In this document: positions 308-63,519 of the stretch, in pieces
Layout: every line of letters starts with the position of its first letter
How positions within the stretch are numbered: position 1 is the first letter of the stretch
Source: Campylobacterales bacterium
Lineage (GTDB): Bacteria; Campylobacterota; Campylobacteria; Campylobacterales; Sulfurimonadaceae
Reading direction: 5' to 3'
Assembly: GCA_026390075.1 (NCBI GenBank)
Contig: JAPLGP010000033.1
Coordinates: forward strand, 1 to 64,000
DNA: 64,000 nucleotides
Made by a program: the position numbers and the translations under genes
The notes under the pieces: model-generated
Databases searched by the model: none
What the model saw: the letters and a program-made list of their open reading frames with translations, nothing else
Told to the model about the DNA's origin: nothing

Positions 308-2278
308 TTAGCTTAGGTTGAGTACAACTTTTAGAGAATCTATATATTCGTTTATCATTCTCATAAGTGCTTTCGTAAACATTTCATTGATATCTTGTGC
401 GGTTTTATCCTCGTTTAAAAGCCCTTTCGTATTGAAAAAATCAAATATAAATGTGTACATAAATTTGCAATATTCTTGAAAAATAAGAGATAAATCATAT
501 GCAGTTGGTGAGGTATCGTTTGAGAGTTTATAAAAGATATTTACTAAAGAGTGTAAAAACTCATCACTTGTTTCAAAGTGATAAAATTGTTGTGAAATGA
601 TTACATTTTTTAACTCTAAAGCATAATTGAGCCTTTGATGAAGCACTGAAATTTCAAGTTCTGTTATTTCATTTGAACAATTTTTTGTAAAGATAGTTTT
701 TAACTCAGATGCTAAAATATTTTTATCAATCAGTTGCAATAAATTTGTCTCAACACTCTCTATATTTTTTGCAGTAGTGCTTAAAAATTTAGCTCCACTA
801 CTGAGATTATAAATATGTAAATCCTCTTTTTTAAACCATTGAGATGCTGCATTTATAGACTCTATGGAAAGTGCATATTCAGGTGTTGTATAAACTTGAG
901 GCTCAAAATTTCCATCAACTTTTATAACACTGTTTTTAAATTCCATCACATCATCATGTCTATTTGAATTTTCTAAATCAAGTGTCTGAACATACTCATG
1001 CCCTTCAGAGTGTGTTGCACCTGTTTGACTATCAAGTGCCAAATCAAGTCCAAGCAGATAAAGCTCTCTTACCCTAAGTCCAAGAAGCAAAAGGTAAGTA
1101 GTTGAACCTACACATGCAGCACTTAAATTGCCAATACCTTGCTTGTATGATGTTCCATTCTCATAAAAAAAGACATGCTCTTTATTGAGCATCTTTACAA
1201 TAGAATCAGGTGTTCTAGCAGATAAAAAGAAAATGGTTTGCTTCAAAAAATCCAATGATTTTAACTTTGTAAAATGTGTTGCACTTGTTTCAAATCCATC
1301 CATATGCGTAACGACATCTGGAATGATTCCCTCTTTTTCTATAGTATTTAAAACAGAAGACAGGGCTACAATAAAAAATCTTTCTTGATTGTTTTTTAGC
1401 CACTCCATGTTTTTTTTCAAAGATGGTCCTGCTGCTAGTAATAAAACAGGCTTGTTTGTCAAGGAGGTGTTTTCATAAGAGTCCAATATATTTAAAAAAT
1501 TGTATTTTTCACTCATAAATTTTAGAGGAGCTAAATATTGAGTGAGAATATCTTTGTAAAAAAATACATTTTGGCTTTGCGAAACAACTCTGACATGGAA
1601 CTCTTTAATTTTTTCTTCACTATGACTTAGCATGTGGAAAAATTTAATGTAATGATTGAGAAAAAAATTATTGTTTATAAATGCCTGAGCTGGGAAGACA
1701 AACTCCTCATTAGATTCAAAAACACTAAAAAAAAGTTGAGATTTTTTTGCTATCTCATAATATGGAGTGACAAATAAAGAGAGTTTAAAGAGTTCTAAAT
1801 CATCTTCAATTATAAAGTAATTTTGCGCTTTTATTTTTTCATGTACTTCATTTATATGCGTTCCAAGTCCTACGCCGAAAAAAACAAACTTGTTAATTCT
1901 TTTAAACTCTTGTTCTCTTGGCATGTGGGATTTTATATATTGAAGAGTTGAGGCTACATCAATCAAATAACCACTTTCATCCTCCAGCGGAAATATTTTA
2001 AAAGTTTCAAATACATTCTCATTTTTTTTAAAACTGATGCTTTTACTTACGGTTTTCGCATAAGCAAAACTGTCTGAGTTATAGAGTATTTTATTATTTA
2101 AGGATTCTATAACCTCAAAATAGTTTTCTTTATTTATAAGCTCATATCTGTTTTGATAGAGATTTTGCTCTATCGCAGATTCGAGTGCCGATAGTTTTTC
2201 AAAAACTTTTTTTTGGTTTTCTTCAAAATATAAAATATTTTGCTCAAATGTATGAACCATTTTCTCTTTAGTCAACAA
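308..2278 (-). CDS. Motility accessory factor (Maf) family, DUF115 flagellin glycosyltransferase candidate
   Basis: 656 residues. The central part has the DUF115/MptE-like hallmarks of Maf proteins: a glycine-rich stretch 'LLLAAGPSLKKN', then 'VVTHMDGF', and 'LLGLDLAL' followed by 'THSEGH'. Maf proteins of Campylobacter and relatives are thought to transfer pseudaminic or legionaminic acid to flagellin Ser/Thr in the cytoplasm. It is the last gene of the pse operon and overlaps the end of pseI by 11 bases, so it is probably translationally coupled. The downstream side shows no strong terminator. The family call is firm; the acceptor and donor sugar are inferred from the neighbours. Confidence 0.88.
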   Translation of the reverse strand: MLTKEKMVHTFEQNILYFEENQKKVFEKLSALESAIEQNLYQNRYELINKENYFEVIESLNNKILYNSDSFAYAKTVSKSISFKKNENVFETFKIFPLEDESGYLIDVASTLQYIKSHMPREQEFKRINKFVFFGVGLGTHINEVHEKIKAQNYFIIEDDLELFKLSLFVTPYYEIAKKSQLFFSVFESNEEFVFPAQAFINNNFFLNHYIKFFHMLSHSEEKIKEFHVRVVSQSQNVFFYKDILTQYLAPLKFMSEKYNFLNILDSYENTSLTNKPVLLLAAGPSLKKNMEWLKNNQERFFIVALSSVLNTIEKEGIIPDVVTHMDGFETSATHFTKLKSLDFLKQTIFFLSARTPDSIVKMLNKEHVFFYENGTSYKQGIGNLSAACVGSTTYLLLLGLRVRELYLLGLDLALDSQTGATHSEGHEYVQTLDLENSNRHDDVMEFKNSVIKVDGNFEPQVYTTPEYALSIESINAASQWFKKEDLHIYNLSSGAKFLSTTAKNIESVETNLLQLIDKNILASELKTIFTKNCSNEITELEISVLHQRLNYALELKNVIISQQFYHFETSDEFLHSLVNIFYKLSNDTSPTAYDLSLIFQEYCKFMYTFIFDFFNTKGLLNEDKTAQDINEMFTKALMRMINEYIDSLKVVLNLS

Positions 2279-4017: not shown

Positions 4018-4685
4018 TTGATTTTACCCCAAAGGATAAGGTCGGAGTTTAAGATAATTTGTCCATCTTGAAGGTTTTGCTGGTCTGACTCAAAAACGGA
4101 GTAATCTTGAAGATTAAGTAATTCTTTTAAAATCTCTACAATTTCAAGTGAATTATAAAAAGTAATCTGTGCATTATCTTCCCCCGTGAGACTATTTTTA
4201 GGCATTTGATAACAGTTAAAGCCAAGTTTTTCACCTCTGCCAAAGCGAAAATCTTTTGGAGTTCTTAGGCGTATGTAGAGCATTGCACTCTTTTTAATAA
4301 GTTTGTTTGCTACGATATCTTGTAAAAATATTTTCAAATCATCCTTTGAAATATAGTAAATTATTGAGGGCAATAAAAGAACATCTGCGAGGAGATTGTG
4401 ATGAGATTTTACAAATTCTCGCATATCATCTTGATAAAATTCGTACTTAGTTTGACTCTTCATCTGCTCAAAATTTGAATTTGCATAACTTATAAGAGTA
4501 GAATCAAAATCTACTCCTATGACCTCGTTGTCATATTCGTAAGGGAGCATCAAATTACTTGCATTGCCACAGCCAAACTCTAAAAATTTCAGAGAGCTTT
4601 TTTTCTCAAGTGAGTTTTTGAAAAAAAATTTTGTAAAATACTCATCTGGAAATTTTAAACCTTTTATATCCTTGATTGAAATCAT
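4014..4685 (-). CDS. Class I SAM-dependent methyltransferase in the pse operon
   Basis: 223 residues. SAM-binding motif I 'FLEFGCGNASNL' and acidic motif 'VIGVDFDSTLI' lie in the first third, with a Rossmann-fold pattern after them. The start overlaps the pseG stop by 4 bases and the stop overlaps wbqC by 4. Position suggests it methylates a pseudaminic acid derivative or precursor, but the substrate cannot be read from sequence. No PseH-type GNAT acetyltransferase is seen in the operon, and this gene occupies the place next to pseG where one might be expected. It is not itself an acetyltransferase. Confidence 0.8.
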   Translation of the reverse strand: MISIKDIKGLKFPDEYFTKFFFKNSLEKKSSLKFLEFGCGNASNLMLPYEYDNEVIGVDFDSTLISYANSNFEQMKSQTKYEFYQDDMREFVKSHHNLLADVLLLPSIIYYISKDDLKIFLQDIVANKLIKKSAMLYIRLRTPKDFRFGRGEKLGFNCYQMPKNSLTGEDNAQITFYNSLEIVEILKELLNLQDYSVFESDQQNLQDGQIILNSDLILWGKIN

Positions 4686-5596
4686 CTGTTTATCCTTTTT
4701 TGTAACTTGATTTTGAGTGTTTTTGCATTGAATCTTTTTTGTATGAAATATCGTTTATGTTTTAAATACTGCGCCATATATACTTGATTTGAAGCTATTT
4801 GAACTGCTATAAAATCAAGCTTCATAAACACAGCCTCATTTGCACTCACGCTTGGAGTAATGATACCTAGATTTGCCTCAGCCATCAGTTGTGCCATTTT
4901 GGTGGTGTTGATATGAAGTGCAACCCATTTTTTATTTTTTGCATAATTTTGGAGTTTTTTTAGGTTCTTATTTGCAGTTGTTGTGACAAGATTTACTTCT
5001 ATATTTTTAAATTTCTTGAGTATCTCCAATAATTTTATATTAAGATTGGTGTTATCCGTTCCACCCATGGCAATAAGAATTTTATATTTTAAATGTCTAT
5101 TTTTATATTTTATAGCTTTTTTTTCTTCATGAAATTCATCTCTCAAAAGTGTATAATTACTTCCACAGCGAAGTTCACAAGAACTTGGAACTAAATTTTT
5201 ATAGCGTTTAGGATTTGCACATATGTTATGATTTAAAAGTATGTCGCAATTATGTTTTTCGTAAGTGTCATCAAAGACTAAAATCTTTACATCAACATTT
5301 TTTTTTATAAAGTTTTCAAACGCATAGTCAATGCCGTAATGGTCAATTACCAACATATCCACATGCCGAGTATTTATAATTTCTAAAAGTTCTTCTTTCG
5401 CATTCGAATTTAAATTTATTAGTTCATATCCTGCTTCGATTATTTTATGATTTATATTTCCGAGAAGTGCTTGCGTTGCAAAAAGAATCTTGGCATGTGG
5501 ATATTGTTCTTGCAATTGTGATGCTAAAACCAAATCACGCATAATGTGACCTGTTCCTAGAGTGCTTGAAGAATCTGCACGGATTAAAATATTCAT
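4682..5596 (-). CDS. pseG: UDP-2,4-diacetamido-2,4,6-trideoxy-beta-L-altropyranose hydrolase PseG
   Basis: 304 residues. The N terminus 'RADSSSTLGTGHIMRD' carries the family's conserved GxGHxxR motif with His17, the catalytic base known from Campylobacter PseG. Later 'ILIAMGGTDNTNLN' and 'GIITPSVSANEAVFM' match the MurG-like C-terminal UDP-binding half. PseG removes UDP to release the free sugar used by PseI. It is unusually Lys/Asn/Ile rich at the C terminus. It overlaps pseF by 4 bases. Two copies of the GGCATGTGG motif lie inside the gene. Confidence 0.92.
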   Translation of the reverse strand: MNILIRADSSSTLGTGHIMRDLVLASQLQEQYPHAKILFATQALLGNINHKIIEAGYELINLNSNAKEELLEIINTRHVDMLVIDHYGIDYAFENFIKKNVDVKILVFDDTYEKHNCDILLNHNICANPKRYKNLVPSSCELRCGSNYTLLRDEFHEEKKAIKYKNRHLKYKILIAMGGTDNTNLNIKLLEILKKFKNIEVNLVTTTANKNLKKLQNYAKNKKWVALHINTTKMAQLMAEANLGIITPSVSANEAVFMKLDFIAVQIASNQVYMAQYLKHKRYFIQKRFNAKTLKIKLQKRINR

Positions 5597-6285: not shown

Positions 6286-7429
6286 GTTTTATCCTTTGTA
6301 CAACTTCTTCGAGTACACCACTCCAATCATGCGGTTTGCTTTGGCGAATGAGTGTGAAATTTTTGTACCAGTTGCTCTGCTCCTCTACTAATCCCCATCG
6401 CCAATCTGGATGGTACTTCAAAAGTGCAAAACTTTTTTTGCCTAATGCTCCTGCGAGATGCAAAAAGGAGGTGTCAATACTGACAATCACATCCATACTC
6501 TCAATCATAAGTGCTGTGTCATAAAAATCTTTGATTTGGCTTCCCAAGTTTGTAATACCTTGTTTTTTTAAAAGAATATCATCCGCTTCACTTCGCTCGT
6601 ACTGGAGACAATAGAGTTTAACATCTGGAATTTGTTCAAGATACTCTAGCATCAAAGAGAGTTCAATGGAGCGATTTTTTACCGCATCAACCCCTTGCGA
6701 ACCTTGATAGTTAAATCCGATTTTTAGTACATCACTTTTGTTCAAGTCATGTTTTATGCGAAAATTTTGCAAATCTTGTGCATCGACATGCAGATATTTT
6801 TCGCCAAAAGGGATAGTCTCATAAGTCGTGCCAAAGAGATAAGGTGCTTCTAAAAGTGGAGTGTTGTAATCAAAAGTGATATTGCTTTGTGGGGTGATAA
6901 ATGTAACATTAGAATAACTCAGTGCAAAAAGTTTGTGCATCGACTCAGGTACATACACCAAAAGTTTTGCTCCCGTCTCTTCAAAGTGAGGAAGATAACG
7001 AATGAAATTTATAGTATCTCCAAAGCCTTGTTCATGGCTGATATAGAGTGTTTTTCCTCTTAAATCTTCATTGCCTTGGAGTTGTGTTGGCGGATAAGCT
7101 ACTCCACCGAGTTTGTTGCCACGAATGTGTTCATGGTGACGCGTACGGTAGTAAACAAACCCCTCTGCATACTTTTTTTGCAAAAGCAGTAAGTGTGCAT
7201 AGTTGTAAATCGCTTGAATGTAGTTTGAATCTACTTGATTGGCGGCGAGATAACACTCCGCTGCTTCATTTAAAAGATTTTGAACAAAAAAACAAGTGCC
7301 AAGATTTGTGTATGCTACTGCATTAGAAGGATTTAACTCTAAGACCTGAAGATAACTCTCTCTTGCATTTGCATAATCCTCATCCTTGTAATAGTGTGTT
7401 GCAAGAACAAGTAGCTCTTGTGCATCCAT
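6278..7429 (-). CDS. TPR-containing glycosyltransferase-like protein
   Basis: 383 residues. The first ~100 residues are two to three tetratricopeptide repeats ('YTNLGTCFFVQNLLNEAAECYLAA'). The rest resembles the ADP-heptose (GT9)/Spy-like GT-B fold, with 'YISHEQGFGDTINFIRYLP' and 'VSIDTSFLHLAGALGKKSFAL'. Such TPR-GT proteins are common in flagellar glycosylation islands. It may add a sugar or help present flagellin to Maf. It lies between pseC and pseF with overlapping ends (1 and 8 bases). Function is inferred from fold and context only. Confidence 0.75.
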   Translation of the reverse strand: MDAQELLVLATHYYKDEDYANARESYLQVLELNPSNAVAYTNLGTCFFVQNLLNEAAECYLAANQVDSNYIQAIYNYAHLLLLQKKYAEGFVYYRTRHHEHIRGNKLGGVAYPPTQLQGNEDLRGKTLYISHEQGFGDTINFIRYLPHFEETGAKLLVYVPESMHKLFALSYSNVTFITPQSNITFDYNTPLLEAPYLFGTTYETIPFGEKYLHVDAQDLQNFRIKHDLNKSDVLKIGFNYQGSQGVDAVKNRSIELSLMLEYLEQIPDVKLYCLQYERSEADDILLKKQGITNLGSQIKDFYDTALMIESMDVIVSIDTSFLHLAGALGKKSFALLKYHPDWRWGLVEEQSNWYKNFTLIRQSKPHDWSGVLEEVVQRIKHG

Positions 7430-8562
7430 CAGAAACTACACTCTTTTTGTGCATATTTTTTTATGATACTCAAGAGAGTGTTTGCAACATATTTTGCATC
7501 ATCTAGGCTCATTTGTTGATGGCATGGGATAGATATTTCTGAGAGATAAAAATTATTTGCAACAGAGAGTGAAACTGCACCAAACCTTTCTTTATAAAAA
7601 CTGTTTTGATAGATTGGCTTGTAATGAACTTGCACACCAAGTTTCTGTGCTTGTAAATCTTTAAAAATATCTTCTTTGAAGCAGTGCAACTCTGGATTTA
7701 GAAGAATCGGGTAAAGATGTCTTGAAGAGATGTTGGCATGTGGAATTTTTTGAGTTAAAAATAATTTCTCATTTTGAAATCTTTCATCATAATAAAATGC
7801 TATCTCATTTCTTCGTTTTATGAAACTATCCAATTTTTTCATTTGGGTTACACCCAGAGAAGCTGCTATTTCTGTCATTCTGAAGTTATGCCCAAGGCTA
7901 ATCATATCCGAGTTCCAGAGCTCTTTTTTAACCATTCCGTGTGAGCGAAAAAGCCTTAGCTTCGCAGCATACTCATCATTGTCTGTAACAACTGCTCCAC
8001 CTTCGCCAGTTGTGATAGGTTTTATTGCATGAAAACTAAAGATTGTCATGTCGGCAAATGAGCCTATTTTTTTTTCATCCACACTTGAGCCAAGTGCATG
8101 CGAAGCATCTTGAATCAAAAGGAGATTATGCTTTTTTGCTATAAATTTGATTGTTTCTATTTCAATAGGTTTTCCTGCAAAATCAACAGCAACAATAGCT
8201 TTTGTTTTTGGAGTTATAAGTTTCTCAATCAACGCTTCATCTATGTTTCCATCCGCTTTTACATCGCACCAAACAGGTTTTGCACCTAAGGCTACAAACA
8301 TATTAGAAGTGGCTACAAAACTTATTGGGGTTGTAATGATTTCATCACCTTCGTCTATTCCACATGCCGAGTATGCACCAAAAAGAGCTGAAGTTGCGGA
8401 GTTAAATACAATGGCATGTTTAGCACCAGTATAGTCACATAGAGCTTTTTCAAACTCTTCTACTTTTTTACCCTGCGTTAAAAAAGGACTTTTTAAAACT
8501 TCTAAAACTCCTTGTATATCATCATCTTCTATACACTGAGTTGAATAATCAAATTTAGCCAT
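7429..8562 (-). CDS. pseC: UDP-4-amino-4,6-dideoxy-N-acetyl-beta-L-altrosamine transaminase PseC
   Basis: 377 residues of a DegT/DnrJ/EryC1 aminotransferase. The PLP lysine is Lys181 in 'FSFHAIKPITTGEGG', with 'QDASHALGS' upstream. It aminates the 4-keto product of PseB using glutamate. Length and motifs match PseC of Helicobacter and Campylobacter. It begins directly after pseB with no gap and shares its last base with the next gene's first, consistent with one transcript. Two GGCATGTGG motif copies fall inside, one in each orientation. Confidence 0.92.
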   Translation of the reverse strand: MAKFDYSTQCIEDDDIQGVLEVLKSPFLTQGKKVEEFEKALCDYTGAKHAIVFNSATSALFGAYSACGIDEGDEIITTPISFVATSNMFVALGAKPVWCDVKADGNIDEALIEKLITPKTKAIVAVDFAGKPIEIETIKFIAKKHNLLLIQDASHALGSSVDEKKIGSFADMTIFSFHAIKPITTGEGGAVVTDNDEYAAKLRLFRSHGMVKKELWNSDMISLGHNFRMTEIAASLGVTQMKKLDSFIKRRNEIAFYYDERFQNEKLFLTQKIPHANISSRHLYPILLNPELHCFKEDIFKDLQAQKLGVQVHYKPIYQNSFYKERFGAVSLSVANNFYLSEISIPCHQQMSLDDAKYVANTLLSIIKKYAQKECSF

Positions 8563-9668: not shown

Positions 9669-9721
9669 ACTACTTAAGAAAAAATGATAATAATGAAAGA
9701 TTATTGACAAAAGGATTCACG

Positions 9722-11089
9722 ATGGGTATTAGTTCATTAGGTACAGGTTCGAGTATTTTAACGCAAAGTGTTTTGGATCAGTTGAGAGCTGCGGATGATA
9801 CGCAGAGAGTTAAACCGATAACGCTGGATATAGCGAATGAAGGCGATAAGCAGAGCAGTTTAAAAGTTTTAGCTGCAAGTATGAAAAACTTCAGTGACAG
9901 TATTAATGAATTAAAAAGTCCGACCCTCTTTAACGCTAGAGCTGCTTCTGTTAGTGGCACATCTGTTGAGGTTACAGCGGCTGAAAATAGTGACATCCAG
10001 GCATTTAGTTTAAATGTAACTAATATAGCTACAAAACAGATTGAACAGTCGGGTTCTTTTGCGGCTAAAACAGATACCATAGCAAACGGTGCTGGTTCTA
10101 TGAAGTTAAATATAGCAGGTGCTGATTACACAATTAATTATGATGCTTCTACAACCTTAGACGGTTTAAAAACTCTTATTAATACTGCAGCAGGTACTAA
10201 AGTGAATGCTACAGTCGCTCAAATAGGGAGTGCAGATTTTCGTTTAATTCTTAGTTCTGTTGATACTGGGTCAACGCAAAATATCACTATGACAGATAAT
10301 AGTGTTGCTCTTAAAGATGCAAGATTAACTACAGGAGTGGCTCCAATTCAAACAGGAGTAGATGCTAATTTTACATTTAATGGGGTTACTGTGACTCGCA
10401 GTAGCAATCAAGTGAATGATTTAGTAACAGGATATGGCATAAAACTAAAAGCACCAGGTGCTTCAGATGTAAGTGTTACGCAAGACCGTACAGCTCTCAC
10501 GACAAAAGTTGATAGTTTTGTTGAAAAATATAACTCAATCATTGCTGAACTGACTAAACAAACTAAATCGAGTACAGACAGTACTGTTAGGGGTATTTTT
10601 TCTGGAGACAGTAGCATAAAAAATATGAAAAGTGTAATTCAAAATATGATAGAGAGTGTGTCAGGTGGAGTAGGAAGGATGGAGGATTTTGGCTTTAGTG
10701 TTGATAGAAGTGGAGTAATGAGCGTTGATAAAACTGTACTAAACACTAAACTAGACGCAAATATAGCAAATGTCAAAGCTTTTTTTTCTGGTGGTGCTTA
10801 TACGAAAGCAGATTCGAGTGTTGTAACTCTCACTGGTGCATTTACAGGTTTTTATGATATAGCTAATGGATATGCTAAATCTGGTGGCGGGATAGCACAG
10901 ATAGATACTGCTCTCTCGGATGGCATAACTGCTCTGAATGATAGAAAAACTGCCGCTACTGCAAGCCTTGATGCCAAGTATGAAATAATGAAAAAACAAT
11001 ATACTGCTTATGACGCAATGATTGCTAAAATTAACAATGCATCGTCTATGTTTAAGCAAATGACTACAACGAGTAGTACAGGGGCGTAA
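9722..11089 (+). CDS. fliD: Flagellar filament cap protein FliD
   Basis: 455 residues from the ATG at 9722, preceded by AAAGGA at about 9708-9714; an in-frame TTG at 9704 lacks such a site. The N terminus 'MGISSLGTGSSILTQSVLDQL' and central 'DASTTLDGLKTLINTA' match FliD N- and C-terminal domains, and the last ~100 residues are a coiled coil ('YEIMKKQYTAYDAMIAKINN'). FliD caps the growing filament and promotes flagellin folding. The gene is low in Cys and rich in Ser/Thr/Ala, as expected for an exported axial protein. It is followed by fliS, and the divergent pse operon glycosylates the filament. Confidence 0.93.
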   Translation: MGISSLGTGSSILTQSVLDQLRAADDTQRVKPITLDIANEGDKQSSLKVLAASMKNFSDSINELKSPTLFNARAASVSGTSVEVTAAENSDIQAFSLNVTNIATKQIEQSGSFAAKTDTIANGAGSMKLNIAGADYTINYDASTTLDGLKTLINTAAGTKVNATVAQIGSADFRLILSSVDTGSTQNITMTDNSVALKDARLTTGVAPIQTGVDANFTFNGVTVTRSSNQVNDLVTGYGIKLKAPGASDVSVTQDRTALTTKVDSFVEKYNSIIAELTKQTKSSTDSTVRGIFSGDSSIKNMKSVIQNMIESVSGGVGRMEDFGFSVDRSGVMSVDKTVLNTKLDANIANVKAFFSGGAYTKADSSVVTLTGAFTGFYDIANGYAKSGGGIAQIDTALSDGITALNDRKTAATASLDAKYEIMKKQYTAYDAMIAKINNASSMFKQMTTTSSTGA

Positions 11090-11559: not shown

Positions 11560-11800
11560 GCTCAAAATAGCCATTATAGAAAAAGATGCAGACTCCTTAG
11601 ATAAGTTGTTGGATAATATTCCTCAGCTTGAAGATGAAAAAGAGATAGAAGAGGCGGTTTATCTTTTAGAAGAAGCTAAAAACTTAGTAACTCATTTAAA
11701 AGATGAAACAGCGCATTCCATGAAACAGATAAAAAAAAACTTAGAATTCTTGCGTTCGACTGATATTCCTACATCTCTTTCATTTGACATGATGTCATAA
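11546..11800 (+). CDS. FliT-like small flagellar protein (putative)
   Basis: 84 residues from the ATG at 11546 inside the end of fliS. It is almost entirely helical and charged ('DNIPQLEDEKEIEEAVYLLEEAKNLVTHLK'). Its place directly after fliD-fliS, as in many fliDST operons, and its size suggest a FliT-type chaperone for FliD. Sequence similarity to classical FliT cannot be asserted by eye. Its stop overlaps the stop of the convergent SDR gene by 6 bases. Confidence 0.6.
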   Translation: MWLTKLKIAIIEKDADSLDKLLDNIPQLEDEKEIEEAVYLLEEAKNLVTHLKDETAHSMKQIKKNLEFLRSTDIPTSLSFDMMS

Positions 11801-12490
11801 CTTCTTTTTAGAAATTCCGAAATTTAAACTTCTTAGGGTGTAGTCGGTTACAACTGCACCTTTTCGCATCCTTAAAATATGTTCAACTGCATCTGCTATG
11901 TCTGAAACTAAAAGTTTTTCTTCCTCTCTATCACTTGGTTCAAACCTGAGCGTATCATAAAAATTGCTCTGCGTCATATCAGGATTTATGTTTGTTATAC
12001 TCAACCCACTTTTTCGAGTCTCTTCAAAAAGTGAATCACTAAAGGCTTTTAAACCCGCTTTTGTAGCACTATAAACCCCCGCAAATTTACTCGCTCGCAA
12101 GGCTTCTATGGAGTTTATGTTTATGAGATAGCCGTTATTTTGCTTTAAATCTCTAAGAAGGGCATTTGTGAGAAGCATCGGTGCTGTAAGATTTAAAAAA
12201 GTCATATCAGAGATAACTCTCGTACTAAGTTCCTCATGCGGTTCAAACCGACCAAATCCAGCACAGTTAACCAGCATGTGGACAGTTGTATTTTGCAGAG
12301 TTCCACATGCCAAGAGTGTTGAGACTTCATCGGACAAATCTGCTTGAAGCGGAGTAAAATTTTCACTAAAAAAATCCTCTTTTTTAACACTTCTACTAAT
12401 ACCGATAACTCCATATCCAAGAGATAAAAGTCTCAGAGATATGGCTTTACCAATGCCACTGCTTGCACCTGTTACAACTGCTGTTTTCAT
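11795..12490 (-). CDS. Short-chain dehydrogenase/reductase (SDR)
   Basis: 231 residues. It has the classical SDR NAD(P) motif 'VTGASSGIGKAI' at the N terminus, 'LVNCAGFG' (NNAG-like), and the catalytic 'VYSATKAGLKAF' with a YxxxK pair. The substrate is not identifiable. The gene is single and divergent from the HAD phosphatase gene, with 34 bases between starts. One GGCATGTGG copy falls inside. Confidence 0.85.
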   Translation of the reverse strand: MKTAVVTGASSGIGKAISLRLLSLGYGVIGISRSVKKEDFFSENFTPLQADLSDEVSTLLACGTLQNTTVHMLVNCAGFGRFEPHEELSTRVISDMTFLNLTAPMLLTNALLRDLKQNNGYLININSIEALRASKFAGVYSATKAGLKAFSDSLFEETRKSGLSITNINPDMTQSNFYDTLRFEPSDREEEKLLVSDIADAVEHILRMRKGAVVTDYTLRSLNFGISKKKL

Positions 12491-48541: not shown

Positions 48542-48557
48542 ATATAAGGAAAATAAA

Positions 48558-49375: not shown

Positions 49376-49383
49376 GGATATTT

Positions 49384-50424: not shown

Positions 50425-50447
50425 AAATCATAATCTTTAAACTTAAG

Positions 50448-50897
50448 ATGATTAAAATTTTTATTTTATTGGTTTTTGTTTTCAGCATTAGTTATGCTGA
50501 AAATATTAAAATAGATGCAATTTTTAGCGAAGCAAAGAAATCTCATAAGCATGTGTTGATTTTTTTGCATAAGCCTAATTGTGGATATTGTGAGAGAATG
50601 ATTGATTTCACACTTGAAAATGAAAAAGTATCACTCAAAATAAAAAAAGACTTTATTTTTGTTGATATTAATATCGCAGATGCTGGAAAAGTTAGTTTTA
50701 AAAACTTTAAAGGAAGCAAACGAGACTTTGCAAAATTTTTAGGTTATGATTTTTACCCTAGCACAATATTTATAAGCAGCAATAAAGAAGTAGTATATTC
50801 ACAGCCAGGATATCAAGATGAAGATAAATATTTTAAGATTCTAAGTTATGTAGGCAGTTATTCTTATGAAGAGATGAGTATAGAAGAGTTTAAATAA
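50448..50897 (+). CDS. Periplasmic thioredoxin-like protein (SoxW/SoxS-like)
   Basis: 149 residues. Signal peptide 'KIFILLVFVFSISYAENI', and active site C45-G-Y-C48 in 'LHKPNCGYCERM'. The thioredoxin fold continues with cis-Pro in 'FYPSTIFI'. Sox clusters often carry SoxS or SoxW, which reduce and reactivate SoxY Cys. It follows the hydrolase by 23 bases. Confidence 0.82.
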   Translation: MIKIFILLVFVFSISYAENIKIDAIFSEAKKSHKHVLIFLHKPNCGYCERMIDFTLENEKVSLKIKKDFIFVDINIADAGKVSFKNFKGSKRDFAKFLGYDFYPSTIFISSNKEVVYSQPGYQDEDKYFKILSYVGSYSYEEMSIEEFK

Positions 50898-50909
50898 GTA
50901 AGGGTTTAT

Positions 50910-51344
50910 ATGTTAATAGTTGGAAAAGTTTTAGAGCTGTTTTATTCTTCAAATGATGGAAGAATAAACACAACAGAATTAGCTCTTGATAATAAGGGTG
51001 TTATTAAAGATAAATATTACAATAAAAATTTACAAAGATCAGTTTTGATAACTTCTCTGGATAGTTATAATTTGGCTAAGCAACATGGCATAAATGCGCC
51101 ATACAGCTCATTAGGTGAAAATATACTAATAGATTACAATCCATATTATTTAAAACCAGGTGCAAAAGTTATGATAGGTGAGCTTGTACTAGAAATTAGT
51201 CAAAATTGTACGCTTTGCGAAAGTCTTGCAAAGGTAGATGAAAAATTACCAAAAATACTTAAAGATGATAGAGGAATTTTTGCAAAGGTAATTAGCGGTG
51301 CAACTATTAAGAAAAGTGATTCTATTTATCTTTTAAATGAATAG
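50910..51344 (+). CDS. MOSC-domain protein
   Basis: 144 residues. 'GVIKDKYYNKNLQRSVLITSLDSYNLAKQHGI', 'SLGENILIDYNPYYLKPGAKVMIGELVLEISQNCTLCESLAKV' match MOSC (Moco sulfurase C-terminal-like) domains with the conserved Cys, here doubled as C-T-L-C. MOSC proteins carry sulfur or bind Mo-pterin, which suits a cluster with the Mo enzyme SoxC. No signal peptide. It overlaps the next frame by 8 bases. Confidence 0.8.
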   Translation: MLIVGKVLELFYSSNDGRINTTELALDNKGVIKDKYYNKNLQRSVLITSLDSYNLAKQHGINAPYSSLGENILIDYNPYYLKPGAKVMIGELVLEISQNCTLCESLAKVDEKLPKILKDDRGIFAKVISGATIKKSDSIYLLNE

Positions 51345-51378
51345 TAAAAGTTTTGTAATATCAAAAGAAGGAAAAGAA

Positions 51379-52317
51379 ATGAAGTTAATTATAAAGGGTT
51401 TAGTTACGATTTTTTTGCTTGTGATTGGAGTTGCCGCGAGTGCAGCACAAGATATTCAGATATATACAACTGATAATTCTGCGGGTAAAATTACTGGAGC
51501 TACAATAGAAAAAGCTTTTGCGGATGCAGGGTTTAATATCTCTGGGAACAATGATATGAATAAGGCTTTTGAATCAAAGTTTCAAAAAACAAATCATAAA
51601 ATGTATCGTCTCTTCACTCTTTATAAAAAAGACTTAGTTTTAGAATTAGTTAAAATATCTCCAAAAGCTGCACTATTCGCACCTCTAAGTATGTCTATAT
51701 ACATAAATAAAGATTCAAATGACATCTCAATTTCATCTCTATCAATAGATGGCATGGCAAAAATCACTGGTATCCCTACTGAAAATAAGCATATGATAGA
51801 GTATAGTAAACTTGTTATAGATACCCTTGCGAAAGCTCTGCCAAATGGTCACTTTGAAAAAATAACATATAAGCCGTTAGAAGCTAAGGGTGAGTTAGTA
51901 ACAACTTTCACAACAGAGATGAAAGCTCAAGGTGATGCTGTTCAAGATAAAATAGAGGGTATTCAGACTGAGCTAGAGGGTTCACTTGAAACTGTTGGAT
52001 TTGTTATAGCTGGATATAATAAACTTGGAAATGAGTTTAAAGAAGCTGGTTATGAAAAATATGATTTTTTTGATGCCTATTCTATTTGTAAACTTCCAGT
52101 TATATTTGAAGTAGCAAAAAACCATCCCGAAGCTGGTGCATTTGCTCCTTGTACTTTCTATATGTATAAAGAAAAAGGTTCTACAGTTGTAAATATGGCA
52201 TATCCATCAGTATATAACTGGATAAGCTCTTTAGCAATTGAAGATAAGCCATCTATAAAAGTACTCGAAGATGCGCAAGACCTTATGATAAAAGTAGTTA
52301 AAGAAGTAACAGAGTAA
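51379..52317 (+). CDS. Exported protein with two DUF302 domains
   Basis: 312 residues from the ATG at 51379 (MKLIIKGLV), preceded by AGAAGGAAAAG. The frame opens 14 codons earlier inside the MOSC gene but has no ribosome site. It has a signal peptide (about 1-24) and two similar ~125-residue units, each ending 'AALFAPLSMSIYIN' and 'AGAFAPCTFYMYK', the DUF302 pattern. The function of DUF302 is unknown. It occurs repeatedly with sulfur oxidation genes. Confidence 0.75.
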   Translation: MKLIIKGLVTIFLLVIGVAASAAQDIQIYTTDNSAGKITGATIEKAFADAGFNISGNNDMNKAFESKFQKTNHKMYRLFTLYKKDLVLELVKISPKAALFAPLSMSIYINKDSNDISISSLSIDGMAKITGIPTENKHMIEYSKLVIDTLAKALPNGHFEKITYKPLEAKGELVTTFTTEMKAQGDAVQDKIEGIQTELEGSLETVGFVIAGYNKLGNEFKEAGYEKYDFFDAYSICKLPVIFEVAKNHPEAGAFAPCTFYMYKEKGSTVVNMAYPSVYNWISSLAIEDKPSIKVLEDAQDLMIKVVKEVTE

Positions 52318-52337
52318 TAAAAAGAGAGGATGTCCAA

Positions 52338-53681
52338 ATGGCTATTTCAAGAAGAAAAGCTTTACAACTTTCAGGTCTATTTGTCGCAACAACTGCAGTG
52401 AGTGGATATGGCGAAGAGGACAAGATAAAGTCAGGTAATGTACCAAAAGCTAAACCAACTAATAGTGCACCGATTGCCAATGCGAAAGGTCCTAGAGTCG
52501 TTGTTGTTGGTGGTGGATGGTCTGGATTATCAATTGCGAAATATACAAAAATATTTGCTCCAAATGCTGATGTGATTCTGGTTGAGCAAAGGCATGAATT
52601 CGTTTCTTGTCCTCTGAGTAACTTATGGCTAGTAGATAAGATAAAGCTAGAGTATTTAACTCATGATTATCTTCAAGCTGCAAGAGAAAACAACTATACA
52701 TATTTTCATGCAACTGCCATTGGTTTAGATAGAGAGAATCGTCTTTTGCAGACTAGTGATGGTGATATTAGTTTTGACTATCTTGTTTTTGCACCTGGCA
52801 TTGATTATGACTACTCGCGTTGGACAAAAGATATAGCTTTTGAGACTAGATTAAGACAAGAGTATCCAGCTGGTTTTATACCTGGCTCTGAACATATTAG
52901 TCTAAGAAACAAGGTTCTAAACTTTAAAGGTGGAAACTTCATATTAACAGTTCCAAGTGGAAACTATAGGTGTCTTCCAGCGCCATATGAGAGAACTTGT
53001 CTTATTGCAGATTATTTTAAACAAAAAGGAATCAAAGCCAAAGTTATATTATTAGATGAAAATAATGCTATAACTATCAAGAAAAAAGGCTTTCAATCTG
53101 CTTTTGATGAGCTTTATAGTGATTATGTTGATTATCGTCCTAATACAGTTATCAAAAGAATTGACTTAGACAAGAAAATAGTAGAAACTGAGTTTGATGA
53201 AATTAGCTTCGAAGAAGCCGCATTTTATCCACATGTTCGAGGGGCTAAAATTTTAGAAAAAGTTGGTATAGCTAAAGATGGGCAAAATAAACTAGAAGGA
53301 AATATAAATCCTTTTACATATGAAGTAAATGGTGAAAAAGATATATATGTGACTGGAGATTCTAGACCAATGGGCTTTTCTAAGTCAGGGAATACTTCAA
53401 ACTCTGAAGGACATCATGTAGCCAAGTTAATAGCACAAAAGATTAATAGAACAGAAGAAATTAAATGGTACCCACCAACAACCACTTGTTTCTCTGCTGT
53501 TTCAATAAATCCTGAAAGGGCAATTTACATCTATACTCAATATGCTTATAACAAAACAGACGATACATTTGATTTTGCATCAACGAGTAGTAGTGAAGAC
53601 TGGAAAAAAGATGGAATTGCTAATGCAAATTCTATTTATGCTTGGGCTAATTCCTTGTATTTAGACATGTTTAGTAAATAA
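52338..53681 (+). CDS. fccB: Flavocytochrome c sulfide dehydrogenase flavoprotein (FccB/SoxF)
   Basis: 447 residues. Tat signal 'MAISRRKALQLSGLFVATTA'. FAD motif 'VVVVGGGWSGLS' at 54-65. Cys91 in 'VSCPLSN' aligns with the Cys that binds FAD covalently in FCSD. The redox pair is Cys212 ('NYRCLPAPYER') and Cys384 ('TTTCFSAV'). It oxidises sulfide and passes electrons to a cytochrome c subunit. No fccA/soxE gene adjoins it. A DUF302 gene follows by 17 bases instead. Confidence 0.88.
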   Translation: MAISRRKALQLSGLFVATTAVSGYGEEDKIKSGNVPKAKPTNSAPIANAKGPRVVVVGGGWSGLSIAKYTKIFAPNADVILVEQRHEFVSCPLSNLWLVDKIKLEYLTHDYLQAARENNYTYFHATAIGLDRENRLLQTSDGDISFDYLVFAPGIDYDYSRWTKDIAFETRLRQEYPAGFIPGSEHISLRNKVLNFKGGNFILTVPSGNYRCLPAPYERTCLIADYFKQKGIKAKVILLDENNAITIKKKGFQSAFDELYSDYVDYRPNTVIKRIDLDKKIVETEFDEISFEEAAFYPHVRGAKILEKVGIAKDGQNKLEGNINPFTYEVNGEKDIYVTGDSRPMGFSKSGNTSNSEGHHVAKLIAQKINRTEEIKWYPPTTTCFSAVSINPERAIYIYTQYAYNKTDDTFDFASTSSSEDWKKDGIANANSIYAWANSLYLDMFSK

Positions 53682-53698
53682 AATAAAAAAGGAAAAAA

Positions 53699-54289
53699 AT
53701 GAATTTAGTAAAGAACGGTTTAGCCATTATTGGTGGTATTATTATTGTAGGTCTGCTTTTCATGTTTGTAAAGTTTGACTTAGGTACAAGAATAGGTCAA
53801 GCTTCAAAATTAGACCCTCAGGCGATGGGTGCATATATGAAAATGGCTGATGGTGTTCTTACTACAGGTAACTCCGCAGAAGCTATGATTAGAAAAGTTA
53901 AAATTGATCCTAGTGTTTCTACTGATACAGTTGTAGAAGCAATGAAGAGCATAGCGACTGATGCCAATATGCTTCAAGTTGGAGATTCACATATGGCTGA
54001 AGAAAAAGACTATGAAGGTAAAAGACAAAGATACATTAGAATTCTTCATTACTGTAGTCCTGGTATAGCAAAAACATTTATTGATTATTCGGTAGCATAT
54101 GGTGCGTTTATGCCTTGTAGAATTCTTATTGTAGAGGATGATAAAGGAGATAGATGGCTGGTTACAATGGCAATGGAACTTATGCTTTTTGGTGGACACA
54201 CATTACCACCTGAAATGCTAGAAAAAGCCAACCATGTTAGATCCACTATGTATAAAATGATGGATTTAGGCGCTAAGGGCGATTTTTAG
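53699..54289 (+). CDS. Membrane-anchored DUF302 protein
   Basis: 196 residues. N-terminal membrane helix ('GLAIIGGIIIVGLLFMFV'), then one DUF302-like domain: 'YIRILHYCSPGIAKTFIDYSVAYGAFMPCRILIVED'. Conserved Cys-x-Pro and the acidic residues before 'MELMLFGGHTLPPEML' suggest cofactor or sulfur binding, unproven. It is the last gene of the sox run and is closed by a repeat-built hairpin. Confidence 0.75.
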   Translation: MNLVKNGLAIIGGIIIVGLLFMFVKFDLGTRIGQASKLDPQAMGAYMKMADGVLTTGNSAEAMIRKVKIDPSVSTDTVVEAMKSIATDANMLQVGDSHMAEEKDYEGKRQRYIRILHYCSPGIAKTFIDYSVAYGAFMPCRILIVEDDKGDRWLVTMAMELMLFGGHTLPPEMLEKANHVRSTMYKMMDLGAKGDF

Positions 54290-54320
54290 TGGCTAGAGAG
54301 ATATAGTTTTTTGAGAAACT

Positions 54321-54353
54321 ATTTCCACATGCCGACTCTTAACATGTGGAAAT
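54321..54353. terminator. Hairpin between convergent genes built from the GGCATGTGG motif
   Basis: Perfect eleven-base stem ATTTCCACATG (54321-54331) / CATGTGGAAAT (54343-54353), eleven-base loop. The left arm with the next two bases is a full motif copy and the right arm is a copy lacking its first two bases. It sits between the sox run and the convergent minus-strand gene, so can end both transcripts. Confidence 0.7.
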
Positions 54354-56192: not shown

Positions 56193-56789
56193 TTATTTGT
56201 TTATTATAGCATCAACTCTTGTCAGGGCTTCTTTATATTCATCAGGATTGTTTATATTTAAAAATGATTTTTCATCTTCAAAATATACAAAGTTTGTTTT
56301 TGAGTTTTTAAGTAAAAATCCAAGTTTATGGTTATCTGTTTGGAGCATGTGGGAAAATTCATTCTCAAGTGAACGGTGGTAGATGCCACACATAGGTTGC
56401 ATTCCACATGCCAAGATTGCGATTGTTGCATCGGCATGTGGATTATTTGAATCCTCTTTTAAAAGCTTTAAAATTATCTCTTTATCAACAAAAGGAGTAT
56501 CAACACTCAGGGCAAAAAAACTTTCTTCTTTTAACTCTTTAAAAATTGCAACAAATCCAGTGGTTGGAGCAAAAATAGCGTCGCTTGATACATCTTCTAT
56601 AAAGTTTGCATCAAAGTCAAATTTACTTTTACTTTTACATGAAATATATACACTTTTGAAAATTTTACTAAGTCGGGAGAGTTGAAATTCTGTGAGAGTT
56701 TTGAAATCGCCAAAGGGAAGAAGAGATTTATCTTCCCCCATTCTACTACTCTTGCCACCTGCAAAGATGACACAAGGAGTGTCTATCAT
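56193..56789 (-). CDS. mobA: Molybdenum cofactor guanylyltransferase MobA
   Basis: 198 residues. The start '[24 protein letters not shown]' is the GTP-binding MobA motif, with '[16 protein letters not shown]'. It attaches GMP to molybdopterin for bis-MGD enzymes, so serves enzymes other than SoxC, which uses unmodified pterin. Same direction as moaC, 22 bases apart. Two GGCATGTGG copies 29 bases apart lie inside, in opposite orientations. Confidence 0.9.
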
Positions 56790-59105: not shown

Positions 59106-59235
59106 GGTAAGCCTTGATATTTAAAATAATTTTGCAATTATACCATTCAAGAGTTGAGAGTTCTATAATTTTAAAATATTCCACATGCCAAGACTTAACC
59201 AATAAGATGATATATTTTTCAAAAAAAGAGTGAAT

Positions 59236-60346: not shown

Positions 60347-60874
60347 TCATAGTTCCTTAAAGTTTAATGTATCTGCAAAAGACTCTTTAGGTCCAATGAC
60401 CGTTAAAAGCATATCGCCAAATTCTGTTTTAATCGTTGCGGTCGCAATTTTAGAGCTTTTATGTTTAAAAAGAGATTTTGCTTCATATATTAAAATAGGA
60501 GGTGTTATACTTAGTGTTGTTCCATCCAATGGATTCGTGAGAGAATTTCCAACGATAGTATTGACGATTTCAGAAGAAACACTCTCTTTTACTTCATCTT
60601 TTTCATCTTCAGGAACTTCTTCGCCTTCCAAAAATGCTTCAACCAATTTATCAAGAAGTTCATCATCATAACTCATTGTGATGATAACTTGTATGCTTCC
60701 ACCTGTGCCAATCATCGCAGTATTTTTTTTAAGCTCTACTTGGTTTGGGCAAACAACCTCTAAATTATTGGAAGTTACACTTATGTGCATATCTTCTTTT
60801 AAAAAACTTATTGATCTCTCTAACATTGGTAACAAAATGTTTTCTTCTATTTGCCCAGCTTCGATGTTTTGCAT
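60347..60874 (-). CDS. CheX-like phosphatase domain protein
   Basis: 175 residues. The CheX/CheC-type phosphatase motif E-x(2)-N is visible in 'SVSSEIVNTIVGNSLT', with 'ITMSYDDELLDKLVEAFL'. CheX removes phosphate from CheY. It shares one base with the kinase stop, and the three genes form a compact phosphorelay: kinase, phosphatase, receiver. Confidence 0.8.
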   Translation of the reverse strand: MQNIEAGQIEENILLPMLERSISFLKEDMHISVTSNNLEVVCPNQVELKKNTAMIGTGGSIQVIITMSYDDELLDKLVEAFLEGEEVPEDEKDEVKESVSSEIVNTIVGNSLTNPLDGTTLSITPPILIYEAKSLFKHKSSKIATATIKTEFGDMLLTVIGPKESFADTLNFKEL

Positions 60875-63519
60875 TATATTTCTCCTTCTTGTGTTGGTAT
60901 TGTAAAAATAAATGTAGTTCCAAGATTTTTTTGCGTATTTATTTTTATAGTTCCACCAATTTTCTCAAGTTCTGCTTTCACTGCACTCATGCCGACTCCT
61001 CGCCCTGATGTTTCAGTGATTTCCTCTTTTGTAGAAAATTGTTCACTAAAAATAAAATTATAGATTTCCTCATCACTTAGTGAACTCACTTGCTGTTTTG
61101 TTATCATTCCTTCATTGAAGGCTTTTTCTAAGATTTTTTCTTTATCTATTCCAGAACCATCATCCGAGATAATAATTTCAATAATATTCCCTGTTTCTTT
61201 AAAGCTGCATGAGATTGTTCCCTCTGTATCTTTTTCATTTTCATCTCTTAGCTCAGGCGTTTCGATTCCATGGTCTATAGCATTTCTAAATACATGTATA
61301 AGAGATTTTACAAATGGTTTGATTTTGTCTGAAACTAATACATGGCTATCACCTATAATTTCAAATGAATAGATATGTTTTTCCAATTTTGTAGCTAATT
61401 GCTCTACTAAAGAAGGATAAGGTTTGAGCATTTGAAGTAAACTTTGATTAGACAAACTTGCTACTTCGGTAATAATTTCTTTTGCTTGTGGCGTTGTAAG
61501 ATTTGATTGCTCAAAGAGTTTAAAGATTTTATTTTCTAAAGTTTTAATGACAGATAGATTTATTTTAACAAAACTATGAGCGTTAAAAAACTCATCTCCT
61601 AAAATATTTTTGATAATATCAAGTTCCACATGCCAAGTAGATTTAAAATCATACTTGTTTAAAAGTGACAATAACTTTTCATTCGTATGCTTCGTTTCTT
61701 TTAGCATTGATGACAGTTCGCTCTCAATTGAGTGTAAAAAAATGACAATGTTAGGCATGTGGAGTTGAGCGAAAGCACCTTTAAAAGTATGGATAGTTCT
61801 ATAAATTTCATTGATGTTATAAAGAGATGTTTTACTCATATCTATCTGATTTTTGTAATTGTCCATAAACAGTTCATACTCTTTTTTTGTCTCAAAATAG
61901 ATATCGCTTTGCGTTACAACTTCAACAATCATTTTTAAAGTTGTTTGTTCTTTTTCCACTTTATTTTCAAGTTTCTTTTGCGCTGAAATATTTGTGATGA
62001 CTAACATAAGTTTCTCATCCCCAAGAAGCTTGTACTCTAGTTTGAGTGCTCTTTTATTTAAAATAATCTCTATTGGTAATAACGAAAGAAGGGAATGTTT
62101 AATAATATCATTGTCCATCTCGTTAATATCTAAAATCGTAGTTTGAAAGAACTCTTTTTTACTTTCATCTACAAACAATAAATCAGCTATATTTTTACCA
62201 GCTATATCTTCGCCTAAAAATCGTTTACACTCTGCCGAGTATTCATTATCAACTATAAAATCACAGCCAAAAGATAAAAATCCTTGCCCCGCGTTATCTA
62301 AAAGCGCACTTATTTTTTTAGTTTTTTCTTCAACTTTATATTCTAAGTTTGTGTTTAACTCGCTTATCTCTTCATGAAGTTTCGCACTAACTGCTATATT
62401 TTCTCTCAAAGAGTCTGCCATTTTTCCAAACTCATCATCTGTGTATATTGCAATGTCATTTGTATAATCTTTTTTACCTTGTAAAAATAAGAAAAAGCTC
62501 GACAACCCATCTTCAAATATTTTTAATGGTTGTGTCACAAGTTTTTTTACAGCTAACATAATGACAAGTGTTATAACTATTGCCATTGTCAAGATTCCAA
62601 GAAGAGACAAATAGATTAAAATATGTGATTTGTCTATAACACTATTTACAGCTAAGAGCGGTTTTGCCAAAATAATGACGCCAAGCTCTTTGTCCTGAAA
62701 ATCTTTTACTTTTACAAAAGTATAAAAATATTTTGTGCTTAATACATAGCTATTTTTGAAAAGTTTTTGCATATCAAGATTTTTTGCATCCCCTAAAAAA
62801 TCTTGATTTATAAACTTTTGAGAGATAATATAACTTTGAAATTTATCACCCTCAGTAAATAAAACTTTTTCACCCCCACTCATCATGTCGTTGACTTTTC
62901 CATCCATTAAAAGCAAAAAGCCTACACTCGTTTTATCAAAATCTTTTGCAATAGAATCTACACCTTGAATAAACTCCAAAGAACCTAAATGCTCTTCATT
63001 GTCGCCTATAATTGGTATAACTGACCTTAAATTGAGACCCACTCTTCCCGCTTCAAGGGATGTCACAGGATTAAGTGTTTTATTTACAGCTACAACAGTT
63101 GCTCTAAATGAACTTAAATCATCTCCATATTTTTCTGCTTCCCAATTTCTTAAAAATGATATATTATTTTTTGTATGAATTTGAACTTTAATATTCTGAA
63201 ATTCAGTATGCTCTTTCATTCTTATTGAAATATCTTTAAGTGATTCTATTGCATATTTTCTTTCATCTGTTTGCAGAGCAGTTTTTATTCTCTTATCATT
63301 GGCAATAGAAATAGCGTTTGTTATTCCTATTCTAACTTTGCAGTCCATCTTATAGTTTGCACTCTCTATAAGCTCTTTACTTGTACTTTGATAAACATCC
63401 TGTGTAATTTTTGTCCCATACCAAGAAAGCAGAAGAAATGATACAATCAAAGAAGCTAGGGAGATACCAATAATCGCTATATTTAACTTTGTACTGACTA
63501 ATAATGAACGCACAGACAA
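60874..63519 (-). CDS. Membrane CheA-like hybrid kinase (Cache-HAMP-PAS-Hpt-HATPase)
   Basis: 881 residues. Two membrane helices (about 14-33 and 300-322) flank a ~265-residue periplasmic Cache-type domain ('GRVGLNLRSVIPI'). HAMP and coiled coil (325-400), PAS-like (403-515), an Hpt domain with phospho-His577 in 'IYRTIHTFKGAFAQL', then a CheA-type ATPase ('HVFRNAIDHGIETPELRDENE', 'ISDDGSGID', 'SGRGVGMSAVK'). It ends without a CheW-like P5 domain, so is probably independent of chemoreceptor arrays. Two GGCATGTGG copies are inside. Confidence 0.85.
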   Translation of the reverse strand: MSVRSLLVSTKLNIAIIGISLASLIVSFLLLSWYGTKITQDVYQSTSKELIESANYKMDCKVRIGITNAISIANDKRIKTALQTDERKYAIESLKDISIRMKEHTEFQNIKVQIHTKNNISFLRNWEAEKYGDDLSSFRATVVAVNKTLNPVTSLEAGRVGLNLRSVIPIIGDNEEHLGSLEFIQGVDSIAKDFDKTSVGFLLLMDGKVNDMMSGGEKVLFTEGDKFQSYIISQKFINQDFLGDAKNLDMQKLFKNSYVLSTKYFYTFVKVKDFQDKELGVIILAKPLLAVNSVIDKSHILIYLSLLGILTMAIVITLVIMLAVKKLVTQPLKIFEDGLSSFFLFLQGKKDYTNDIAIYTDDEFGKMADSLRENIAVSAKLHEEISELNTNLEYKVEEKTKKISALLDNAGQGFLSFGCDFIVDNEYSAECKRFLGEDIAGKNIADLLFVDESKKEFFQTTILDINEMDNDIIKHSLLSLLPIEIILNKRALKLEYKLLGDEKLMLVITNISAQKKLENKVEKEQTTLKMIVEVVTQSDIYFETKKEYELFMDNYKNQIDMSKTSLYNINEIYRTIHTFKGAFAQLHMPNIVIFLHSIESELSSMLKETKHTNEKLLSLLNKYDFKSTWHVELDIIKNILGDEFFNAHSFVKINLSVIKTLENKIFKLFEQSNLTTPQAKEIITEVASLSNQSLLQMLKPYPSLVEQLATKLEKHIYSFEIIGDSHVLVSDKIKPFVKSLIHVFRNAIDHGIETPELRDENEKDTEGTISCSFKETGNIIEIIISDDGSGIDKEKILEKAFNEGMITKQQVSSLSDEEIYNFIFSEQFSTKEEITETSGRGVGMSAVKAELEKIGGTIKINTQKNLGTTFIFTIPTQEGEI

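Follow-up and report, generated by a model that had tools for sequence, protein, structure and literature searches.

What role could a 9-base word play that occurs 33 times in 64,000 nucleotides? The question is raised by GGCATGTGG, which is dispersed over the stretch analyzed here (the window, bases 1-64000 of one contig) in a 2,403,259-base draft genome of 61 contigs (99.99% complete). The genus of this genome is taken as Sulfurimonas, free-living sulfur oxidizers of the phylum Campylobacterota. An earlier note on the window had likened the word to the DNA uptake sequences (DUS) of Neisseriaceae and the uptake signal sequences (USS) of Pasteurellaceae. We find it probable, from sequence evidence, that GGCATGTGG, with the extended consensus YTTGGCATGTGGAAnT in the own-genome sample described below, is a DNA uptake sequence of Sulfurimonas. 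Biased DNA uptake would best explain the word, because the uptake sequences of Neisseria and Haemophilus behave like it.

The earlier note had counted 33 exact 9-mers, 13 in one orientation and 20 in the other, with ∼0.1 copies expected by chance. Our recount agrees: 33 copies span positions 1920 to 61762, 13 on the + strand and 20 on the - strand, and 100 dinucleotide shuffles of the window gave a mean of 0.13 copies (maximum 2). When 9-mers were ranked against a Markov model, as had been proposed, GGCATGTGG had the highest order-2 ratio (33 vs. 0.21) among the 744 window 9-mers with at least 8 copies, and the highest order-3 ratio (254 vs. 1.19) of all 9-mers that occur 20 times or more in an own-genome sample of ∼437 kb. 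The word is not confined to the window, since the whole genome holds 724 forward and 703 reverse copies (1,427 in all), whereas the reversed-pattern control occurs 1 + 1 times.

A larger set of 41 stretches of the genome has 794,451 readable bases (stretch L198, 1,525 bases, is all N). It contains 473 copies of GGCATGTGG, one per 1.7 kb; the runner-up 9-mer of the same composition has 35 copies and overlaps GGCATGTGG. In the ∼437-kb sample, the 9-mer exceeds its order-3 expectation 213-fold and the 10-mer 528-fold. The extended flanks that the earlier note had described are confirmed there, with T before the word at a frequency of 0.74, A after it at 0.94 and a further A at 0.76. The conserved block covers ∼17 positions, and conservation ends within ∼4 bases of the core. 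Pasteurellaceae USS, similarly, have a core with weaker flanks.

Frames, strands and inverted pairs

A favored short peptide or codon pair could create such a word. Within the 41 stretches, 343 of the 473 copies lie inside open reading frames (ORFs), 160 in sense and 183 in antisense orientation, and the frames are unequal: antisense frame 0, in which the word encodes Pro-His-Ala, accounts for 120 of the 343. All six coding frames nevertheless hold copies, 130 of the 473 copies are not inside one ORF when 33.0 are expected (∼four-fold enrichment outside genes), and orthologues from outside the clade that carries the word, with at least 55% protein identity, are without it. Codon or peptide bias is thus extremely unlikely to be the cause, and the claim that protein selection does not explain copies found in different frames is borne out, as is the view that GGCATGTGG is more than one codon-biased word among others. 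In total, 227 of the 802 called ORFs contain the word.

Neighboring copies up to 60 bases apart are arranged as 30 convergent, 23 divergent and 13 tandem pairs, with 16.6 pairs expected in all. Inverted close pairs thus number 53 against 13 tandem ones, and 36 of the 53 lie outside single ORFs, no more than 100 bases from a 3′ end. Neisseriaceae DUS, too, form such pairs where genes end. The hairpin pairs at gene ends that the earlier note had described for the window are therefore a property of the 41 stretches, but the window itself is a weaker example. Its sole exact inverted pair within 60 bases (56404-56441) is inside an ORF, and the sole pair directly behind a gene (41196-41219, 3 bases past the stop codon) carries a single mismatch in one arm. 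The RNA fold predicted for the latter has a free energy of -16.5 kcal/mol (z -4.47).

The lack of strand bias noted in the window is found on a larger scale, both genome-wide (724/703) and when strands are sorted by base content (the G-rich strand has 244 copies, its complement 229, p 0.52). Word orientation has no relation to GC skew (rho 0.02) or to gene strand, although GC skew and gene strand are themselves strongly correlated in the same 40 stretches (rho 0.80). These data bear on a Chi-like or segregation signal, read by an intracellular DNA-processing enzyme (of the AddAB/RecBCD type, or of the type that reads FtsK-orienting polar sequences, KOPS) and aiding repair or segregation. Chi sites are short over-represented oligomers that vary between species and are strand-biased, and a non-palindromic 8-10-mer varying between species would fit such a role. 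GGCATGTGG, in contrast, is not strand-biased, its orientation follows neither GC skew nor gene strand as that of an oriented signal like Chi would, its excess is far over that known for Chi, and neither concentration outside genes nor inverted pairs are expected of an oriented signal. We regard this explanation as very unlikely.

Relatives, turnover of sites and other words

The earlier note had proposed looking for the same peak in related genomes. In a genus set of 135 genomes, including this one, the 10-mer GGCATGTGGA was counted: 14 genomes hold 140 to 1,302 copies, five hold 31 to 81, and the rest have 13 or fewer. A ComEC tree was built for 50 genomes, in which 17 rows have 31 copies or more; 16 of these group with one low-count genome in a single clade (support 91/90), and the remaining row, the long-branch G035, falls outside it. 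In an order-wide sample of 397 genomes at least 80% complete, the 367 from outside the genus carry 11 copies or fewer each. GGCATGTGG is the mark of a single Sulfurimonas clade. A search for over-represented words in the order's other families (20 small samples of 7-20 kb from 19 genomes) revealed no clear further system. Carriage by phages was considered and set aside, the hairpin pair on each of two viral contigs being taken as chance since these contigs have 55-56% GC and 2 copies each.

We then compared word sites between orthologues, within the comEC neighborhood and with pairs below 55% protein identity dropped. In high-count species the exact word was present in 60.9% of 238 site-by-orthologue comparisons, which share sites and hence are not independent; 9-base control windows from the same genes were identical in 8.1% overall and in 6.0% when matched for G+C. 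By protein identity the exact word was found in 57/88 (55-65%), 30/52, 50/83 and 4/11 (85% and over) comparisons. Retention is thus alike at low and high protein identity, which argues against protein conservation as its cause. There were 61 source sites; 49 of them recur in one or more of the other high-count species, and 18 in all of these.

In low-count members of the clade, only 2.7% of 186 comparisons were exact (control 3.8-6.5%), and 130 of 181 differed by one to three substitutions. Orthologues from outside the clade had the exact word in 0 of 376 comparisons, 14 of the 376 being gapped, and alignment gaps at word sites ranged from 0 to 3.7% by group. In this genome one-mismatch variants are concentrated at the outer positions 1, 2, 9 and 10 (150 vs. 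13.7 expected), with 18 vs. 13.9 expected at positions 3-8 together. In the low-count genomes G111 and G156 relic variants are spread over the word, 10 of 23 at positions 3-8 compared with 18 of 168 here (Fisher p 0.0003). Because low-count relatives differ by point changes, gaps are rare and relic variants are spread, these data indicate that GGCATGTGG sites are gained and lost in situ through point changes, as alignment of word-less orthologues had been expected to reveal. Pasteurellaceae USS are likewise reported to evolve by point mutation (PMC7811141).

The same comparison bears on whether a dispersed mobile element, or a repeat of the repetitive extragenic palindrome (REP) or miniature inverted-repeat transposable element (MITE) type, inserted the copies. 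Inverted pairs able to form hairpins at gene ends would suit such an element. The conserved block is nevertheless only ∼17 bases long and ends ∼4 bases from the core, most copies (343/473) are inside ORFs, and orthologues differ by substitution, with few gaps and no insertion scars at the sites. The probability of this origin is close to negligible.

Other top words were seen in some of 58 genus relatives (3-80-kb samples). TACATGTA is present at 90-848 copies, more than twice its control, in 30 of the 135 genus genomes, and AAACGCAG at 146-2,331 copies, over fivefold its control, in 29. G155 alone passes two thresholds (36 GGCATGTGGA, 271 TACATGTA); filed under TACATGTA, it leaves 18 GGCATGTGG, 30 TACATGTA and 29 AAACGCAG genomes, 77 of 135 in all. 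The three words are almost mutually exclusive among the genus genomes, and on the ComEC tree their labels need 5 changes, compared with a shuffled mean of 15.5. A weaker excess of AAACGCAG in G071 (141 copies, strand-biased 111/30), G028, G007, G027 and G128 was not counted among the 29, and G065 has 527 copies of TACATGTA in its genome and none in its 20-kb sample.

Both words are retained in the same way as GGCATGTGG (pairs under 45% protein identity dropped). In orthologues of same-word relatives, TACATGTA is kept in 84 of 177 comparisons (control 6.4%) and AAACGCAG in 112 of 354 (control 14.4%); in other-word species the figures are 0 of 452 (control 4.2%) and 4 of 602 (control 7.9%). Copies of AAACGCAG inside ORFs are evenly split by strand (45 and 41). 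Near variants of GGCATGTGG were found as AGCATGTGGA in G036, GGCATGTGGGA in G101 and TTGGCATGT in G035, and one 20-kb sample each points to the candidate words CTCACGCAG (G068, G071) and AGATGCTA (G144, G152, G157). TACATGTA is flanked as CTACATGTAG in G032, G062 and G006, and as TTACATGTAA in G011, G060 and G073, which suggests that the two flank types are sub-dialects.

Words that differ between clades could also track turnover in the specificity of a methyltransferase or regulator, if each were a binding or modification site under direct selection, for a nucleoid-associated protein, a global regulator, or a type I/III methylation or restriction system that marks 'self' DNA. The palindromic form of TACATGTA would agree with this. 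Occurrence of GGCATGTGG in 227 of 802 ORFs and in all six frames, with ∼17 conserved positions, is nevertheless unlike regulator sites, and methylation sites are not normally enriched hundreds-fold. We judge such a site unlikely.

Returning to uptake sequences, we lean toward the view that Sulfurimonas, whose members are free-living chemolithoautotrophs, evolved its system independently of Neisseriaceae and Pasteurellaceae. Different clades would carry GGCATGTGG, the palindromic TACATGTA or AAACGCAG as tags, at least three unrelated words that almost never share a genome, in addition to the candidates CTCACGCAG and AGATGCTA. The presence of several unrelated clade words would imply that receptor specificity was rewritten several times, and that DNA exchange is partitioned by dialect.

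Further repeated words were encountered in the samples. A second dispersed word, GTCATTGCGA(G), is enriched in the own-genome, G078 and G143 samples and is perhaps part of a longer repeat. Words of the GATACCGACAC / GTATCTGTGTCGG type are over-represented in the own-genome sample, probably owing to a repetitive coding gene. In stretch L286 (G056) a unit containing GTATTGAAAC is repeated ∼125 times within 8.3 kb, resembling an array of clustered regularly interspaced short palindromic repeats (CRISPR). In L258 (G098) a unit containing CTACAACAGTAG occurs 69 times within 20 kb, which probably reflects a large repetitive gene.

Competence genes and candidate readers

If GGCATGTGG is an uptake sequence, a type IV pilus uptake machinery would prefer DNA carrying it, with a minor pilin as the putative reader. 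Incoming DNA of kin that bears the word would recombine into the chromosome, and molecular drive would build up the word across the genome. Where copies are paired close to stop codons, they may double as transcription terminators, and the clade-specific words would act as dialects that bias DNA exchange toward kin.

Genes for such a pathway are widespread in the genus. ComEC was found in 123 of the 135 genomes (missing, among word holders, from G099 and G156) and DprA in 127 (not in G077); the presence of DprA does not discriminate word holders from the others. This genome encodes a secretin over the MshL cut-off with an adjoining GspE/PilB-family ATPase under both cut-offs, and, to judge from GspE matches, putative PilT-like ATPases. 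Ten proteins match the prepilin N-terminus, eight of them over the cut-off; the ten include a pilin pair ∼7 kb from comEC, which lies near comEC in 11 relatives too. A type II secretion system (T2SS) is also present. A T2SS-like operon was considered as the uptake apparatus and rejected: among the matches listed for 21 chosen genomes, the word holders G101, G099 and G129 (88, 71 and 75% complete) have no GspD/GspE match of that type, so that the operon is not a consistent partner of the word.

The earlier note had predicted a com-type receptor and suggested looking for a ComP-like minor pilin. Minor pilins do exist. A FimT-like one, with a conserved FDxxGRP, occurs in this genome and its relatives, some copies being labelled 'pilus assembly FimT family protein' at the source. 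The Legionella counterpart of this FimT/GspH-like protein is a DNA-binding minor pilin, with binding described as consistent with a non-sequence-specific mode (PMC8897410). The comparison of FimT-like proteins took in GGCATGTGG, TACATGTA or few-copy genomes and no AAACGCAG genome, and the G083 copy was left out of the alignment. A PDB sequence search returned only matches to the shared pilin N-terminus, plus a marginal toxin-family chain (E 0.12) taken as chance.

Several observations weigh against GGCATGTGG as an uptake sequence, and the predicted receptor found no support in the candidate at hand. Unlike Legionella FimT, the Sulfurimonas proteins have no notable positive charge; the net charge is -10 to +3, near-neutral or negative, in the 12 proteins compared. 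Among 24 chosen genomes, the FimT-like pilin has no match in G096, which is 99% complete and holds 859 copies of the 10-mer. On these two grounds it was set aside as receptor. The minor pilins compared thus gave no positive result for a cognate receptor of GGCATGTGG.

Loss of comEC offers no support either. Of the 79 genus genomes with completeness of 90% or more and contamination of 5% or less, 78 have comEC, the exception being G156. The gap in G156 was rejected as a cause of word decay: dnaB and glcD, the neighbors of comEC in this genome, have no real match in G156 either, and the missing comEC is therefore read as an assembly gap. In G111, which has 141 copies of the word, comEC is split by an 8.1-kb insertion (L171:1228-9352). 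Its sister G150 (74% complete) has an intact comEC and is equally low (140 copies), and G078, with 71 copies, also has an intact comEC. A tie between loss of the word and loss of competence genes could not be shown.

The other words add to the points on this side. In 20-60-kb samples, TACATGTA has no clear excess outside ORFs (7 of 61 vs. 3.9 expected) and AAACGCAG has none (4 of 90 vs. 5.2 expected), and, unlike GGCATGTGG, both form few inverted pairs. TACATGTA is a palindrome, and we know of no palindromic uptake sequence among those described, from which it differs. The restriction of the GGCATGTGG orthologue comparison to the comEC neighborhood and to pairs of at least 55% identity, and its shared sites, count in the same direction. 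We found no uptake or transformation data for Sulfurimonas in the open-access literature.

These data suggest that (i) the likeness to DUS and USS stands at the level of sequence, in excess, strand symmetry, use of frames, intergenic enrichment, point change, clade restriction, dialects and the presence of ComEC and DprA; and (ii) neither the pilins compared nor the cases of comEC loss lend it further support.

Layout of the window and wider meaning

Within the window most copies are enclosed by a called ORF; strands are given in brackets. From the left end, copies lie at 1920-1928 (+) in ORF 308-2278 (-), at 5359-5367 (-) and 5492-5500 (+) in ORF 4682-5596 (-), at 7735-7743 (+) and 8360-8368 (-) in ORF 7429-8562 (-), and at 12303-12311 (-) in ORF 11795-12490 (-). 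ORF 14618-15451 (+) holds four, at 14677-14685 (+), 14870-14878 (+), 14957-14965 (+) and 15413-15421 (-). Tandem copies occur at 16935-16943 (-) and 16954-16962 (-) in ORF 16415-17068 (-), and again at 24203-24211 (-) and 24224-24232 (-) in ORF 23608-24381 (-). They are followed by single copies at 24688-24696 (-) in ORF 24455-24787 (-), 28947-28955 (+) in ORF 28809-29342 (-) and 31020-31028 (-) in ORF 30072-31175 (-).

ORF 31159-32241 (-) encloses the copies at 31604-31612 (-) and 31888-31896 (+), ORF 32234-33703 (-) the one at 33223-33231 (-), and ORF 33700-34800 (-) those at 33757-33765 (+), 34059-34067 (-) and 34390-34398 (+). On ORFs of the other strand, 38119-38127 (-) falls in ORF 37532-38596 (+), 38929-38937 (+) in ORF 38571-39008 (+) and 40192-40200 (-) in ORF 39691-40764 (+). 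The copy at 41211-41219 (-), not inside one ORF, is the exact right arm of the terminator-like inverted pair 41196-41219, which lies 3 bases downstream of the stop codon that ends ORF 40773-41192 and has one mismatch in its left arm. The copies at 54325-54333 (-) and 59181-59189 (-) are likewise not inside one ORF. The inverted pair 56404-56412 (-) and 56433-56441 (+) is inside ORF 56193-56789 (-), and the last two copies, 61626-61634 (-) and 61754-61762 (+), are inside ORF 60874-63519 (-).

Positions 41220-54324, 13.1 kb without GGCATGTGG, form the widest gap between copies in the sampled genome. This segment holds a sulfur-oxidation cluster with a molybdopterin oxidoreductase, cytochromes c and a flavocytochrome c sulfide dehydrogenase, and the word-free stretch may be newly acquired DNA. 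Elsewhere in the window, pseudaminic acid genes occupy 308-9573 (PseB and PseF over the cut-off, a PseD-like protein below it) and adjoin a FliD-like gene (9704-11089) that scores under the cut-offs of its models. At 21699-22877 lies an AAA ATPase related to the MADS3 anti-phage ATPase, well under the cut-off of that model.

Published accounts treat uptake sequences as a peculiarity of Neisseria and Pasteurellaceae, and one of the reasons proposed for them is that host DNA competes in mucosal habitats (PMC3630211, PMC7811141). Neisseriaceae DUS, which come in dialects and share the core CTG, are read by the minor pilin ComP; like GGCATGTGG, they are short and non-palindromic, are conserved within a species, number hundreds to thousands of copies with both orientations represented, and vary as dialects along phylogenetic lines (PMC3630211). 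The Sulfurimonas words are unrelated to them, belong to another phylum and include several unrelated words in one genus, with no ComP identified; CTG is absent from GGCATGTGG and its reverse complement. Pasteurellaceae USS resemble GGCATGTGG in their 9-base core, their density of about one copy per 1-2 kb and their evolution by point mutation; they are explained by molecular drive, and ComN as their receptor is a prediction (PMC7811141, PMC12616744). Their words, given as AAGTGCGGT or ACAAGCGGT (PMC3630211), are not among the top words listed for the own-genome sample, and they differ from GGCATGTGG in phylum and in belonging to mucosal rather than free-living bacteria. In line with the earlier note, no uptake sequence reported for Sulfurimonas or Campylobacterota was found in the open-access literature.

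If GGCATGTGG is an uptake sequence, free-living sulfur oxidizers would represent a third, independent origin, and biased uptake would need no host habitat. Several unrelated words in one genus would provide a natural series for studying how a pilus reader gains or changes sequence specificity, and the dialects would allow one to ask whether words set species borders. The right word on donor DNA could, moreover, make these hard-to-manipulate bacteria transformable.

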